NCBI GenBank assembly: GCA_030595325.1
Contig: JAUVDN010000006.1
Location: 1 to 44,575 of the forward strand
Reading direction: 5' to 3'
Source of the DNA: Gammaproteobacteria bacterium
Lineage (GTDB): Bacteria; Pseudomonadota; Gammaproteobacteria; SZUA-229
Length of the DNA stretch: 44,575 nucleotides
Part shown: positions 8,115 to 35,995 of the stretch, one piece after another
How the letters are laid out: every line of letters begins with the position of its first letter
Position numbering within the stretch: the stretch's first letter is position 1
Made by a program: the position numbers and the translations under genes
The notes under the pieces: generated by a model
Databases searched by the model: none
What the model was told of the DNA's origin: nothing
The model's input: the letters and a program-made list of their open reading frames with translations, nothing else

Positions 8115-8579
8115 TTACATAGTCAAATTAAAGGTAACCGGGCCATCATTATGCAACCGAACCGCCATGTCTGCACCAAATTGCCCTGTCTGTAGCCAGT
8201 TAGCGGATAAATTCTGCGCTAATGACTCACCTTTTACACGCATTATATCAACAAGTTGCGTAAACAGTGCGATTCCTTTTTCCGGGTCTGCAGCGCTAGA
8301 GAAACTTGGCCGCAAGCCCTTCTTCGTGTCCGCCGCCAGGGTAAACTGAGGTACCAGTAAAACTGAACCGCTAATATCCATCACACTCAGGTTCATTTTA
8401 TCTTCCACATCGGCAAATACACGGTATTTCAATATTTTTTCTGCCAGACGCTCCGCCGTAATCAATTCGTCCTTTTTCTCGACACCGAGCAACACCAGCA
8501 GACCCTGCTCGATAGCCGCTATTTCTTCGTTATCGACAACCACCGATGCCGATTTGACGCGCTGTATTAGTGCAATCAT
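8115..8579 (-). CDS. dtd: D-aminoacyl-tRNA deacylase
   Basis: MIALIQRVKSASVVV; start at 8579 chosen because AAGGA is spaced 6 nt from it (abuts the upstream in-frame ATG at 8585); SVLLVPQFTLAADTKKGLRPSF. Confidence 0.96.
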   Translation of the reverse strand: MIALIQRVKSASVVVDNEEIAAIEQGLLVLLGVEKKDELITAERLAEKILKYRVFADVEDKMNLSVMDISGSVLLVPQFTLAADTKKGLRPSFSSAADPEKGIALFTQLVDIMRVKGESLAQNLSANWLQTGQFGADMAVRLHNDGPVTFNLTM

Positions 8580-8639
8580 AAACATTCCTTTTTATTAATA
8601 GCCGCGCCTATACCATGCCTAAGACCCAGTAAAAGCCAA

Positions 8640-8657
8640 TGTAAGGATTTTCCTACA
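8640..8657 (+). promoter_or_regulatory. Candidate GacA/UvrY upstream activating sequence
   Basis: TGTAAG-GATTTT-CCTACA versus the TGTAAG-N6-CTTACA consensus (1 mismatch in 12 fixed positions); about 70 bp upstream of the GGA-rich RNA candidate. Confidence 0.65.
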
Positions 8658-8713
8658 TCAATTTGCCTTTCTCGCTGATGGCACGAATCAAGCAAGTAAA
8701 CCATAATACTCAG

Positions 8714-8915
8714 TATGGACAAAGGGACAGAGCCGTAACAAGGACATAAGGATATAGGTAGCTTCAGGAAATTCAACACGGATAAGGACTAAGGATTATT
8801 AGTTTACACGGATTGGTAACTTTTTCTATGGAATTGGAAATCTAAGGAATAGCTATAGCGCGAGGCTCATCACCAAGCAAGGACCTGAAACCCCAACTTT
8901 TAGTTGGGGTTTTTT
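8714..8915 (+). ncRNA. Candidate CsrB/RsmY/RsmZ-type CsrA-sequestering sRNA
   Basis: About 13 GGA motifs (many AAGGA/ANGGA) in roughly 200 nt, ends in an intrinsic terminator, GacA-like box upstream, CATAAT -10-like hexamer at 8702; 5' end estimated. Confidence 0.72.
8890..8915 (+). terminator. Rho-independent terminator
   Basis: ACCCCAACtttt-aGTTGGGGT stem followed by TTTTTT. Confidence 0.9.
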
Positions 8916-8917
8916 AT

Positions 8918-9121
8918 GCCCAGGGATGGGCGGTATGTCGCAAGGAGCCAAGGACGGCGGTGCGTCGATGCCCAGAGATTGGGCGGCATGCCACAAAGAG
9001 CCTGCGACCTACATGGATGTAGGAAGTTAGAGCAACGCAGGAGCAATTGCCGAGGAGCGGAAGCTTCGTCCAGGGATTGTACCGTATGAAGCAAGGAGCC
9101 ATGGATGGCGGTGCGTCAATG
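8918..9121 (+). repeat. Degenerate array of about 50-nt units carrying small hairpins with GGA/GAGA loops
   Basis: GCCCAGGGATGGGC (8918), GCCAAGGACGGC (8947), GCCCAGAGATTGGGC (8970), CCTACATGGATGTAGG (9008), GCCATGGATGGC (9098); unit 8921-8970 resembles 9071-9120. Confidence 0.75.
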
Positions 9122-9187
9122 TAGATATATCCACCCAAATTCCAATATAAACAATGAATGATTGCTGCATCAACAGATGGACGCTAT

Positions 9188-9304: not shown

Positions 9305-9559
9305 CTACTCAATAATCTCATAACAACCGGTATCAGACTCCGCAAGATAAGTGCAGTCATATACTTTCCCGTTACACTCCGCTATCCAGTTATGCTCACC
9401 ATTAAGCTCAACCGTTTCTTTAGATATCGTCACATCTTCCTTTTTGCACTCGGCAATATTATACGACGTTGCTTGCACCGCTATACTGGTATTCGTCAGA
9501 CAACCACTAAGCCCAAAGACCAATATTGATGCAACCATTATTCTCAAAATTATTTTCAT
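9305..9559 (-). CDS. Small predicted lipoprotein
   Basis: N-terminal hydrophobic segment with lipobox FGLSGC; no recognised domain. Confidence 0.7.
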   Translation of the reverse strand: MKIILRIMVASILVFGLSGCLTNTSIAVQATSYNIAECKKEDVTISKETVELNGEHNWIAECNGKVYDCTYLAESDTGCYEIIE

Positions 9560-9960
9560 TCGTCTATCAACAGCTCAGGTTTTTTAAATTGTAACCATTT
9601 ATACGCATCATCAATATCATTAAAAATATCTACACGAATATGCGCAGCAACAGATAATAGTTTGTGCAATTTAGCCAACACTATTGGGTATGGATCCACT
9701 GCTATAATTGCCATTGTAAACTCACCTCTACTCAACCCAAGATTCAGATTGATATGAGCAACCCTATGTATATCATCATCAGTAAGCGCGCTCGTATCCG
9801 CACCCAGCACATCAAACAATTGACTAAACCCCGGTTTTATCAAACCGCCAAAGTTATTAATCATCCAGTGCTTGCTATCCATTAGCTCTTTACTTGTCAC
9901 TTTACCGCTGCATTTGCTTACAACCAATAAACCGTCATGGTAAATCTCTTGAACAATCAT
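9556..9960 (-). CDS. Conserved hypothetical protein, possibly SpoIIAA/STAS-like fold
   Basis: Complete 134-aa ORF overlapping the lipoprotein start by 4 nt; MIVQEIYHDGLLVVSKCSGKVTSKEL; fold assignment tentative. Confidence 0.65.
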   Translation of the reverse strand: MIVQEIYHDGLLVVSKCSGKVTSKELMDSKHWMINNFGGLIKPGFSQLFDVLGADTSALTDDDIHRVAHINLNLGLSRGEFTMAIIAVDPYPIVLAKLHKLLSVAAHIRVDIFNDIDDAYKWLQFKKPELLIDE

Positions 9961-25186: not shown

Positions 25187-27766
25187 TCAATCTGCAATAA
25201 ATTTTTTCTGTTGAAATTTTACAACATTGCCATTAGGTAATTCGTCTAACGGTATAGAGATATAGTTACCCTGAACTTTATCGACACCACAAATTTTCAA
25301 CAAACGAACGATTTCTGGACTTTCCACATACTCAGCAACAGTATAACGACCTAAAGAATGCGCCACATCATTCATCGCTGTTACGATTGCACGGTCAGTT
25401 GCACCCCGTGCCATGCTACGTACAAACTGACCATCGATCTTCACATAGTCGGTTGGTAAATTCTTTAACTGAGAGAAAGAACAGAAACCTGAACCAAAGT
25501 CATCAAGTGAGAATCGGCAACCAATTTTTCGCAGCTCATTAATAAAATCATTTGCCTGCTCAAGATTTGCAATGGCACATGTTTCAGTCACTTCAAATGT
25601 CAGTGAACTAGGCGCCACATTATATTTATCTATCAATGATTTTATAATATCAAGCGTCTCATCGCTATCAACCGTGTTGCCACATATGTTAATCGATAAG
25701 CGAACATTGCTGCCTGACTGCCCGGTAGCAATCATCGCCTGTAGAGCATGATCCAATACCCACATATCAATATCTGTCATCATATTGAAACGTTCTGCTG
25801 TTGGAATAAAACTATCAGGATAGTTGAGCACACCATTCTCATCAACCATTCTGACCAGAACTTCATAACTATATATTTTGTCAACCTCACTCAGATGTCT
25901 CCGCCACAGAGCTCCGTCTTGCGCAGGAAGATTGACAAGATCAACATCCTTCATCTGCATAATAGGCTGATAATGCAATACAAATTTATCATTTTCCAAT
26001 GCTTCCCTGATGCGCACAGACCAACCTAACTCCTTGCCCATGCTGTTATGCTCATCACTGGTTTTCTCATAGATATGAGTCTGGTTTCGACCCATTCGTT
26101 TTGATATATGACAGGCAATATCTGCGTTCGCCATAATATCACCCGCAGTTAGATCATCTATATCCATCATTGCAACACCAAAGCTGGCATTTACATGATA
26201 CGATTTCTCCTCATGCTGTACCCGCAATCCTGACAGTGCTATCCTTATTTCATCGGCTATATCTATCGCTTGAGTATCATCAACATTTTTTAAAATTATC
26301 GCAAACTCATCGCCACCGATTCGCGCCGCAATATCTTGGCGTCTAATATGTTTACTTATTTCACGACTGAGGTCGACTAATAATTTATCACCAACTTCAT
26401 GACCTGCAGTATCATTAACATATTTGAATCGATCAAGATCCATATACACGACTGCACTCATAACACCTGTACGACTTGCGGCACTTAATTCTTTCTCAAG
26501 ATCAGCTTCGAAATAACGACGGTTAAATAAACCGGTCAGGTGATCGTGGGTTGCCTGCCAGCGTAACTTCTCTTCCATCATCTTACGCTCAGAGATATCT
26601 CTAAAAGCAATAACAGAACCTTCCTGCTTACCGTTTACTGATAGTGGGAACAACGTGCAATCAACAGGAATTTCCTTACCACTCTGATGTTTGAATACCG
26701 TTTCCCATCCCTTAAGTTTCTCACCTGAATAATAGGCCTCTCTCAGCAGATCTTTATTTTCACTCTGGTGTTCCAGATGAAAAGCTTCGTTCGCACCCAC
26801 GCCTAATAAAGGCTTTACATCATGCAGGCCCAGCACTTTTAATGCCGCCGGATTCATAAATGTTATGCGGCTATTTTTATCTACACCGTAAACACCTTCA
26901 CCAACCGACTCAAGAATTGCAGCTAGATTTTCACGTTGTTTTTCGATTGATCGCTGCACTTCGATAAAGCGACGCATACCTGATATGCGCGCTAAAAATA
27001 ATTCTTCTGCTTCATTCTTGAATATACATTCGATTGCACCAGCTTGCAGACAATCACGTATAACAGAATCAAGGTAGGTACCGGTGATTACCGCCGTTCT
27101 GATATCTTCTGTTAGTGGGTTATCACGTAGCTTCTGACACAGCACATAACCGTTGTGTTCGGGCATAAAGTAATCAACAATAGCTATATCAACTGGTTGT
27201 GCAAGTGCAATTTCATAAGCTTCGTTAACAGAATTCGCTATTGTTACATCATAGTTATTGCGTTCAAGCAGCCGCTGATAATAAACACGGATACTTTTTG
27301 AATCATCAACAAATAAAACACGTGTCTGCCTTGCATCTCTGTAGGAAGCACGCTGTTCGATAACAGGTTCTTTACTTTCGGGATTTAACATCACCTCTAA
27401 AGACAAGACCATTTCCGGATAATTTTCCCAGGGCACCAATGCTGTGGATTGGCGGGTGCTCATCCAGTTCAGTAACTCAGGTTCAGCATCGTTTGATAGC
27501 AGCAGCACAGGAACCTCACTATAAGGTTCACGATCCAGGATAACCAGCAGATGCTTGGATTTATCGAAATGTTCGTAATTTGGCCAACCGACAAGGATTG
27601 CATGAAGCTGCTGTTCATTTGTCTGCAACAGCTCACTGGCAGAAATGAAATCATTCACAACGACAATTTCATAACCCTGCTTCTCAATGGTCTTGCCAAG
27701 CATATACCGTAAGGTTGCCGATTCTTCTACAATCAGAATACGTTGCTTAGTAGCAATATCAGACAT
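25187..27766 (-). CDS. Receiver-receiver-PAS-GGDEF-EAL cyclic-di-GMP signalling protein
   Basis: REC VLFVDDSKSIRVYYQ...DIAIVDYFMP; PAS; RIGGDEFAIIL; EAL-type domain with EVL motif and DDFGSGFCSFSQLKNLPTDYVKIDG. Confidence 0.95.
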   Translation of the reverse strand: MSDIATKQRILIVEESATLRYMLGKTIEKQGYEIVVVNDFISASELLQTNEQQLHAILVGWPNYEHFDKSKHLLVILDREPYSEVPVLLLSNDAEPELLNWMSTRQSTALVPWENYPEMVLSLEVMLNPESKEPVIEQRASYRDARQTRVLFVDDSKSIRVYYQRLLERNNYDVTIANSVNEAYEIALAQPVDIAIVDYFMPEHNGYVLCQKLRDNPLTEDIRTAVITGTYLDSVIRDCLQAGAIECIFKNEAEELFLARISGMRRFIEVQRSIEKQRENLAAILESVGEGVYGVDKNSRITFMNPAALKVLGLHDVKPLLGVGANEAFHLEHQSENKDLLREAYYSGEKLKGWETVFKHQSGKEIPVDCTLFPLSVNGKQEGSVIAFRDISERKMMEEKLRWQATHDHLTGLFNRRYFEADLEKELSAASRTGVMSAVVYMDLDRFKYVNDTAGHEVGDKLLVDLSREISKHIRRQDIAARIGGDEFAIILKNVDDTQAIDIADEIRIALSGLRVQHEEKSYHVNASFGVAMMDIDDLTAGDIMANADIACHISKRMGRNQTHIYEKTSDEHNSMGKELGWSVRIREALENDKFVLHYQPIMQMKDVDLVNLPAQDGALWRRHLSEVDKIYSYEVLVRMVDENGVLNYPDSFIPTAERFNMMTDIDMWVLDHALQAMIATGQSGSNVRLSINICGNTVDSDETLDIIKSLIDKYNVAPSSLTFEVTETCAIANLEQANDFINELRKIGCRFSLDDFGSGFCSFSQLKNLPTDYVKIDGQFVRSMARGATDRAIVTAMNDVAHSLGRYTVAEYVESPEIVRLLKICGVDKVQGNYISIPLDELPNGNVVKFQQKKFIAD

Positions 27767-34063: not shown

Positions 34064-35995
34064 TTATTGCAAGGCAATAAGCTCATCGAACTCAGAATTT
34101 GGCACCGCTTTACTGATTAAAAATCCTTGTATCGTGTCGCAGCCTAACTCTGTTAATAAATCTAAAGCAGATTGATTTTCCACACCTTCTGCAACCACAG
34201 TCAGACCAAGGTTGTGTGCCAGCTCGATAGTAGAGCGCACAACTGCTTCATCGTCTTTGTTATCAACCAAATCTTTGATAAAAGTCTGATCTATCTTTAA
34301 TTCGCTGACTGGCAAACGGCGAATACGGCTCAATGAAGAATAACCCGTACCGTAATCATCGATGGACAACACAACACCTAAAGAACAAACATGATCAAGA
34401 ACTTCTGCAAGCCGATCAAATTCCGACAAGAATAAATTTTCGGTGATTTCAAACGTTAATAACTCACCATCAGTTTCATCTTTTATAATTTTATCAATAT
34501 TTTCTTTGAACTCGGGATGCATTAATGTCTGCGGAGATAAATTAACCGCTATACGCAATACACTGCTTCCGCTTTTCCATTGTCTCGCTTGCGCCAGTGC
34601 AGTTTCTATCGCCCAATAAGTGTATTCATCAATCATACCATTCTGCTCTAACACTCGAATAAAGATATTAGGCGGAACATTACCGCGCTTCTTGTTAGAC
34701 CATCGACCCAATGCCTCGGCGGCAACGATCTGACCTGTTTCAGCACTTACTTTAGGCTGGTAGTGCAATTTAAATTGTTTCTCTTCTAACGCTTTGCGCA
34801 CATCAGAGACCATCGCCAGATGACCTTGTGCCAGATAATCATTTCCTGAGTCGTAGACACATACTTTTACATTACTGCTTTTTGCTTCATACATCGCAAT
34901 GTCTGCATGACTTAACAGACTACTGATATTAGTGCCATGTTCAGGGTAAACAGCAACACCGATACTTGCACTCACAACAATATTATTCGCTTCAATCGCA
35001 AACGCCTGTTTTAAACACTCTATGAATGAATCAGCACGCTTTTTAGCTTTCTCTAACGTGTGATTAGGTAGAATGATAATAAATTCATCACCGCCAAGGC
35101 GCGCCAATGTTTCGTTGTTTTTAACCTCACTATCGAAACGCCGCGCAATTTTATTTAATAACCTGTCACCGTTATCATGTCCCAGGGCATCATTTATACC
35201 TTTAAAACTATCAATATCAATCAGCAAAACACCAATATTTTTTTCTTTACGAGACGCTTCTTTAATATCGCGAGAAAGACGGTCATGAAATAAAGAACGA
35301 TTGGGCAGCGAAGTAACAGAGTCATAAAGCGAAAGATACTCCAGTTCTTTACTGCTTTCGATGAGTTGCTTATTCAGATTTTCCAGTTTGAAACGGTAGT
35401 CTTCATTTAACTCATGAGAGACTTCCATACATTTGACCGCCATCGCATTTTCTATAGCAACAGAAACGATACTGGCAAACAGCTGTAACAGGTTCAGGTC
35501 TTTTTTATTAAAACTTTCGCCATTCAATTTATTTAAACCAGCAATTCCACCCAAAAACTGTTTTCTGCCTTGCAGCGGTACCAGAATCATGTTGCTGGCT
35601 TCTTTTTCCCAGCGATTTTTTTCTTCATCACTAAGCTCGTTCATCATGCCCTGCCACCAGGGCTTTTTGTGCTTCCAGACCCAGCCGCAGACACCAAATT
35701 CAAGCGGTAACGATTCACCTATGATTTCATTAGCGTTCTCACCGGAACCACCCCGGTACGTATAGGTTTCACCGTTATCGTCTAATAATGGAATTAACAA
35801 AGTTTCAGCGTTAACCAACTCACGGGCGCGATTGGCGACTATCTGAAAGACCTTTTCTATATCGAGCTCACTGCCAATTTCTGCGAATGATTGCTGCAAC
35901 AACTCAATCTCAGTCTCTTTTTCCTGAAGACTGCGGCTAAGATCAACCACATTTACTTTTTTATTCGATCCCATAAATATTTGGACTAATTCCAC
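34064..35995 (-). CDS. GAF-GGDEF-EAL cyclic-di-GMP signalling protein
   Basis: GAF-like N-terminal region; LARLGGDEFIIILPN; AEALGRWSNKKRG; DDYGTGYSSLSRIRRLPVSELKID. Confidence 0.94.
   Translation of the reverse strand: MELVQIFMGSNKKVNVVDLSRSLQEKETEIELLQQSFAEIGSELDIEKVFQIVANRARELVNAETLLIPLLDDNGETYTYRGGSGENANEIIGESLPLEFGVCGWVWKHKKPWWQGMMNELSDEEKNRWEKEASNMILVPLQGRKQFLGGIAGLNKLNGESFNKKDLNLLQLFASIVSVAIENAMAVKCMEVSHELNEDYRFKLENLNKQLIESSKELEYLSLYDSVTSLPNRSLFHDRLSRDIKEASRKEKNIGVLLIDIDSFKGINDALGHDNGDRLLNKIARRFDSEVKNNETLARLGGDEFIIILPNHTLEKAKKRADSFIECLKQAFAIEANNIVVSASIGVAVYPEHGTNISSLLSHADIAMYEAKSSNVKVCVYDSGNDYLAQGHLAMVSDVRKALEEKQFKLHYQPKVSAETGQIVAAEALGRWSNKKRGNVPPNIFIRVLEQNGMIDEYTYWAIETALAQARQWKSGSSVLRIAVNLSPQTLMHPEFKENIDKIIKDETDGELLTFEITENLFLSEFDRLAEVLDHVCSLGVVLSIDDYGTGYSSLSRIRRLPVSELKIDQTFIKDLVDNKDDEAVVRSTIELAHNLGLTVVAEGVENQSALDLLTELGCDTIQGFLISKAVPNSEFDELIALQ

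Follow-up and report, generated by a model that had tools for sequence, protein, structure and literature searches.

The Gac/Csr regulatory scheme is known from experimental work carried out in other organisms (PMC2375449, PMC4682653, PMC3171408, PMC7652899). The RsmX, RsmY and RsmZ RNAs are free-standing, terminated RNAs displaying unpaired GGA motifs and associated with a palindromic upstream activating sequence for GacA (PMC2375449). Similarly, CsrB and CsrC from Escherichia coli and CsrB1 and CsrB2 from Shewanella contain AGGA/ARGGA motifs, and the UvrY box TGTAAGN6CTTACA occurs upstream (PMC3171408, PMC4682653). Pairs of sites located 10-63 nt apart lie within reach of one CsrA dimer, and the core of the CsrA-binding motif selected by SELEX corresponds to ACARGGA (PMC7652899).

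The locus described here occurs in the genome of an uncultured gammaproteobacterium, in a stretch of 44,575 nucleotides (44.6 kb) that was analysed as a whole and is referred to below as the window. On the basis of sequence comparison, the region 8640-8915 is very probably the gene for a small RNA of about 200 nt of the Csr/Rsm type, i.e., a sponge for CsrA activated by GacA. Like RsmX, RsmY and RsmZ from Pseudomonas, the predicted RNA is a free-standing terminated molecule with multiple GGA motifs, preceded by a GacA-type palindrome and present in several copies per genome, but it differs from these RNAs by the absence of any detectable similarity in sequence or to their covariance models. 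The Pseudomonas RNAs are also smaller, about 110-130 nt with fewer GGA motifs, compared to about 200 nt and 13 GGA for the window RNA. With CsrB/CsrC from E. coli and CsrB1/CsrB2 from Shewanella it shares the many AGGA/ARGGA motifs, the UvrY-type box and the occurrence of two copies per genome, whereas it is unmatched by RF00018, shorter, and located beside dtd. In addition, some 65 bp separate the box from the predicted start, as compared to about 180 bp in E. coli csrB (PMC3171408, PMC4682653).

The anatomy of the locus is summarized in Table 1. The box, the CATAAT hexamer and the terminator with its T-run reported by the first-pass annotation were all found in place when the sequence was read again. 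The box is the sole exact match to TGTARG-N6-CYTACA in the window, out of four that the 2.3-Mb genome contains; its second half-site reads CCTACA instead of the textbook CTTACA, and CCTACA is also the usual form in relatives. The -35 hexamer is likely contained in the CTGATGGCA element, where the promoter scan places ATGGCA at a distance of 18 bp from CATAAT. The terminator consists of a stem, 8888-8897/8903-8912 (AAACCCCAAC-TTTTA-GTTGGGGTTT), and a T-run at 8910-8915. According to this anatomy, the locus is a free-standing intergenic unit endowed with a promoter and an intrinsic terminator, and devoid of an open reading frame. A dispersed, partly tandem repeat made of units of about 50 nt (8918-9130) directly follows the terminator on its 3' side; parts of it match 61 places genome-wide, and the GGAs found there belong to the repeat and not to the RNA.

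Table 1. Features of the predicted small RNA gene (positions in the window).
Feature	Position	Strand	Basis
GacA/UvrY-type palindromic upstream activating box TGTAAGGATTTTCCTACA (TGTAAG-GATTTT-CCTACA)	8640-8657	+	Exact match; half-sites conserved
Conserved CTGATGGCA element, containing the -35-like ATGGCA (8678-8683)	8675-8683	+	Conservation; promoter scan
-10 hexamer CATAAT	8702-8707	+	99% conserved in relatives; fixed spacing from box
Predicted non-coding RNA, about 200 nt, 13 GGA of which 11 ANGGA	8714-8915	+	Start inferred from the -10 hexamer
GAGCC, 5' side of a putative long-range closing helix	8730-8734	+	Pairs with GGCTC
Core CsrA-like site AAGGA within ACAAGGA (SELEX core ACARGGA)	8740-8744	+	All 15 homologues keep the GGA at 8742
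GGCTC, 3' side of the putative closing helix, inside the conserved segment AGCTATAGCGCGAGGCTCATCACCAAGCAAGGA	8864-8868	+	Pairing with GAGCC
Rho-independent terminator	8888-8915	+	Sequence; stem and T-run kept in homologues

The abundance of GGA triplets, estimated at around 13 and mostly in ANGGA context by the first-pass annotation, holds upon exact counting (8714-8912) and clearly exceeds the content of shuffled sequences. Mononucleotide shuffles contain on average 4.05 GGA and none out of 20000 reaches 13, while dinucleotide shuffles contain 6.6 on average and a single one out of 5000 reaches this number. For ANGGA, dinucleotide shuffles give a mean of 2.3 and a maximum of 8, and 0 out of 5000 attain 11. 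The RNA body also represents the GGA maximum among all 200-nt windows taken on both strands of the 44.6 kb, for which the mean amounts to 1.4 on the + strand and 1.9 on the - strand. The GGAs are spaced at 6-35 nt, with many spacings falling inside the range of 10-63 nt that CsrA can bridge, and the ACARGGA core is present at one site at least in the window RNA and in every copy of the genus.

A DNA search of 40 relatives matched the region within the genus of the window only. A full-length copy adjoins dtd in 12 genomes of the genus, this genome included, with scores of 174-207 bits for sequences that themselves belong to the training set of the covariance model, and two further genomes of the genus possess partial copies cut by contig ends. 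The model found no match in 3 of the 18 genus genomes and a marginal one in a fourth; among these four, one genome is 97% complete but distributed over 490 contigs. Conservation was evaluated in 15 homologues, i.e., those from the 12 genus genomes and three from other lineages. The two half-sites of the box are 96% and 99% conserved as compared to 48-70% around them, and in relatives the distance from the first base of the box to the start of CATAAT is 62 nt (+/-1). The CTGATGGCA element exhibits a mean conservation of 0.89, whereas the linkers that separate the box, this element and CATAAT are poorly conserved (about 0.55). Within the RNA body, the columns forming GGAs reach 0.875 versus 0.743 for the other columns (Mann-Whitney p = 7e-5), and 59% of them are invariant versus 20% of the others. 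Invariant GGAs start at 8717, 8725, 8742, 8750, 8780 and 8810, and those at 8830 and 8836 are not conserved; the number of GGAs varies from 10 to 15 in relatives. The letters of the terminator stem vary among homologues (CCCCAAC, CCCCCGG, CCCCGGAC), and the stem and T-run persist. Such a pattern is the one that would be expected of a CsrA sponge selected for its GGA sites. To regard the region as GGA-rich by chance, as a small protein-coding gene or as part of the dispersed repeats that come after it deserves hardly any credence: GGA-containing repeats do start just past the terminator, but conservation falls at this very point from 0.75 to 0.56 in the 15 homologues, a pattern already at odds with this reading. 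Moreover, the RNA model detects two convincing loci in the genome and not dozens, and the longest ATG-initiated open reading frame comprises 7 amino acids in the window RNA and at most 24 in the copies of the genus and the paralogues.

To assess the wider distribution of this organization, dtd was searched in one genome per species, yielding 80 loci. In several of them, upstream of dtd or pip-dtd and on the strand opposite to dtd, an exact box precedes a GGA-rich stretch that ends in a terminator. Homologues linked to dtd occur in other gammaproteobacterial MAGs, either beside dtd (L042, L043, L058) or upstream of pip-dtd (L083), and candidates combining a box and a GGA-rich stretch were also recognized in L048, L067, Ectothiorhodospira marina and E. 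haloalkaliphila. In the two latter, which are named and culturable species, the candidate Csr-type RNA is located upstream of pip-dtd (L064 and L082, respectively), and ttcA occupies its other side in L064, pip and ttcA being named from translated sequences. Among named records, the MAG HyVt-457 (DRLE01000265.1) is the nearest, with a dtd protein 71% identical.

The covariance model R1, built from 15 copies, matches the window at 8707-8915 with 198.5 bits, the window copy being a training sequence. Outside the training set, R1 recognizes a second, diverged copy in the same genome (L026 1501-1766, G000:C100:1538-1803; 79.5 bits), which associates an exact box TGTAGGTCTATCCTTACA, CATGAT, 9 GGA and a terminator in a genomic context distinct from the dtd locus. 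Also outside the training set, paralogues in two genomes, G006 and G007, score 96 and 99 bits, a copy with box and 13 GGA in G021, which belongs to the same family but to a different genus, scores 58.6 bits, and L083 scores 49.6 bits. L048 is marginal (19.8 bits), and R1 has no match to the Ectothiorhodospira and L067 candidates, whose resemblance to the window RNA lies in architecture and place. Since only 4 of 184 class-level genomes match R1 at E up to 0.01, this genome included, the sequence family is narrow; the plasmid records searched contained no match. Two other exact boxes of the genome, L024 (G000:C20:22256) and L025 (G000:C60:1307), were rejected as small RNA loci, since the sequence downstream of them contains no more than 1-4 GGA on either strand. 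The L025 box is situated upstream of a gene for a small protein that reads as a helix-hairpin-helix (ComEA-like) protein, which may be another direct target.

The intergenic location of the element, with dtd on one side and a small gene (9556-9960) on the other, would suit a 5' leader or another cis-regulatory element of a neighbouring gene. There is nevertheless very little chance that this is its nature: both neighbours are encoded on the - strand, whereas the element lies on the + strand with its own terminator, the unit is kept intact in other lineages where its flanking gene differs (L064 has pip-dtd and ttcA), and the second copy resides in a different context.

With respect to RNA structure, the single-sequence fold of the window RNA is not unusually stable compared to shuffled sequences (z = -1.13). 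In the predicted folds of all 15 homologues, the G residues of GGA are more often unpaired than other G residues, single folds being poorly determined. The GAGCC and GGCTC arms are paired in 91.6% of the cells of a 19-sequence alignment, with a covariation score reached by 54 of 500 shuffles; because this covariation is weak, the long-range closing helix is kept as possible only. The assignment as a sponge was not made to rest on structure.

In the 3' segment AGCTATAGCGCGAGGCTCATCACCAAGCAAGGA, high conservation is not confined to the GGA, which lends itself to another interpretation, namely a transcribed GGA-rich small RNA acting otherwise than as a CsrA sponge, e.g., by base pairing through this segment, the GGAs being incidental. 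Such a role is most improbable in view of the preferential conservation of the GGA columns and of the association of ANGGA enrichment with a GacA-type box, both hallmarks of CsrA-sponge RNAs. Furthermore, every recovered copy, the diverged second copy included, keeps at least 9 GGA despite drift over most of its length. A second function added to that of CsrA sponge, exerted through AGCTATAGCGCGAGGCTCATCACCAAGCAAGGA and its possible pairing with the 5' GAGCC, for instance base pairing with target mRNAs or binding of another protein, appears unlikely, if less strikingly so. As a class-wide signature the segment was discarded: it matches 8 of 369 genomes, and the seven matches outside this genome lack both box and GGA array and are therefore attributed to chance.

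The designation of the locus as CsrB/RsmZ-like in the first-pass annotation has no counterpart in Rfam. None of the CsrB, CsrC, RsmY and PrrB_RsmZ families matched the window or the 15 loci at the gathering score, nor the region 8500-9100 at E up to 10, and weak matches such as AgrB and rnk_pseudo were dismissed as chance terminator matches. Searched against the whole genome, CsrB (RF00018) and PrrB_RsmZ (RF00166) gave best scores of 12.6 and 15.6 bits, respectively, both away from the locus. Since the RNA displays, at the sequence level, the hallmarks of this functional class and corresponds to none of the Rfam families, it is assigned to a new sequence family within an already known kind of RNA. 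One computational survey has reportedly dealt with small RNAs regulating CsrA, and relatives of the window RNA may have been predicted earlier. The proposal of a Csr-titrating RNA is otherwise supported by the homologues from the 12 genus genomes and several other lineages, which keep the box, the promoter spacing, the GGAs and the terminator.

The protein partners looked for in the genome were recovered in part: it contains csrA and a gene of the barA/gacS type, while gacA was found in relatives and not here. CsrA (L001) comprises 62 amino acids and, at 117 bits, exceeds the cut-off of 73. The hybrid kinase, a 925-amino acid protein with BarA as best family, falls short of the curated equivalog cut-off (662 versus 890 bits), and its gene adjoins a gene that reads as pdxJ. 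A GacA/UvrY-like protein at the level of the relatives was not found in this 82.8%-complete genome, in which the best candidate (176 bits) is a regulator located beside its own kinase. Proteins of this type (252-268 bits, likewise short of the equivalog cut-off, here 280) occur in 11 of the 18 genus genomes, including all five of those at least 90% complete, and incompleteness of the assembly most simply accounts for the gap.

By analogy with the characterized systems, we infer transcription of the gene, binding of GacA and CsrA, and the outcome of sequestration as follows. GacS/BarA would phosphorylate GacA/UvrY, and the phosphorylated regulator would bind the palindrome, some 65 bp ahead of the start, and activate the sigma-70 promoter. 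The resulting transcript, with about 13 GGA sites of which many pairs could be bridged, would bind several CsrA dimers and sequester them away from their target mRNAs, which would thus be de-repressed. A link to the control of c-di-GMP, suggested earlier from the presence of two GGDEF/EAL genes in the window, found no specific support there. Both proteins (25187-27766 and 34064-35995, - strand) were confirmed by family search. In the leader of the first gene, a single ANGGA occurs at -34 and one GGA at -10, and that of the second contains no ANGGA; no clear cluster of CsrA sites occurs in either, and the link was set aside, the sites in these leaders not exceeding those of other genes of the window.

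The picture of how Gac/Csr systems work is unchanged by this locus, which would add a family of CsrA-sponge RNAs that Rfam lacks, present in a gammaproteobacterial genus still uncultured and anchored to dtd in several other lineages. The locus predicts that a Gac/Csr switch operates in organisms that cannot yet be grown. The combination of box, GGA motifs and synteny can reveal such RNAs where covariance models are blind.
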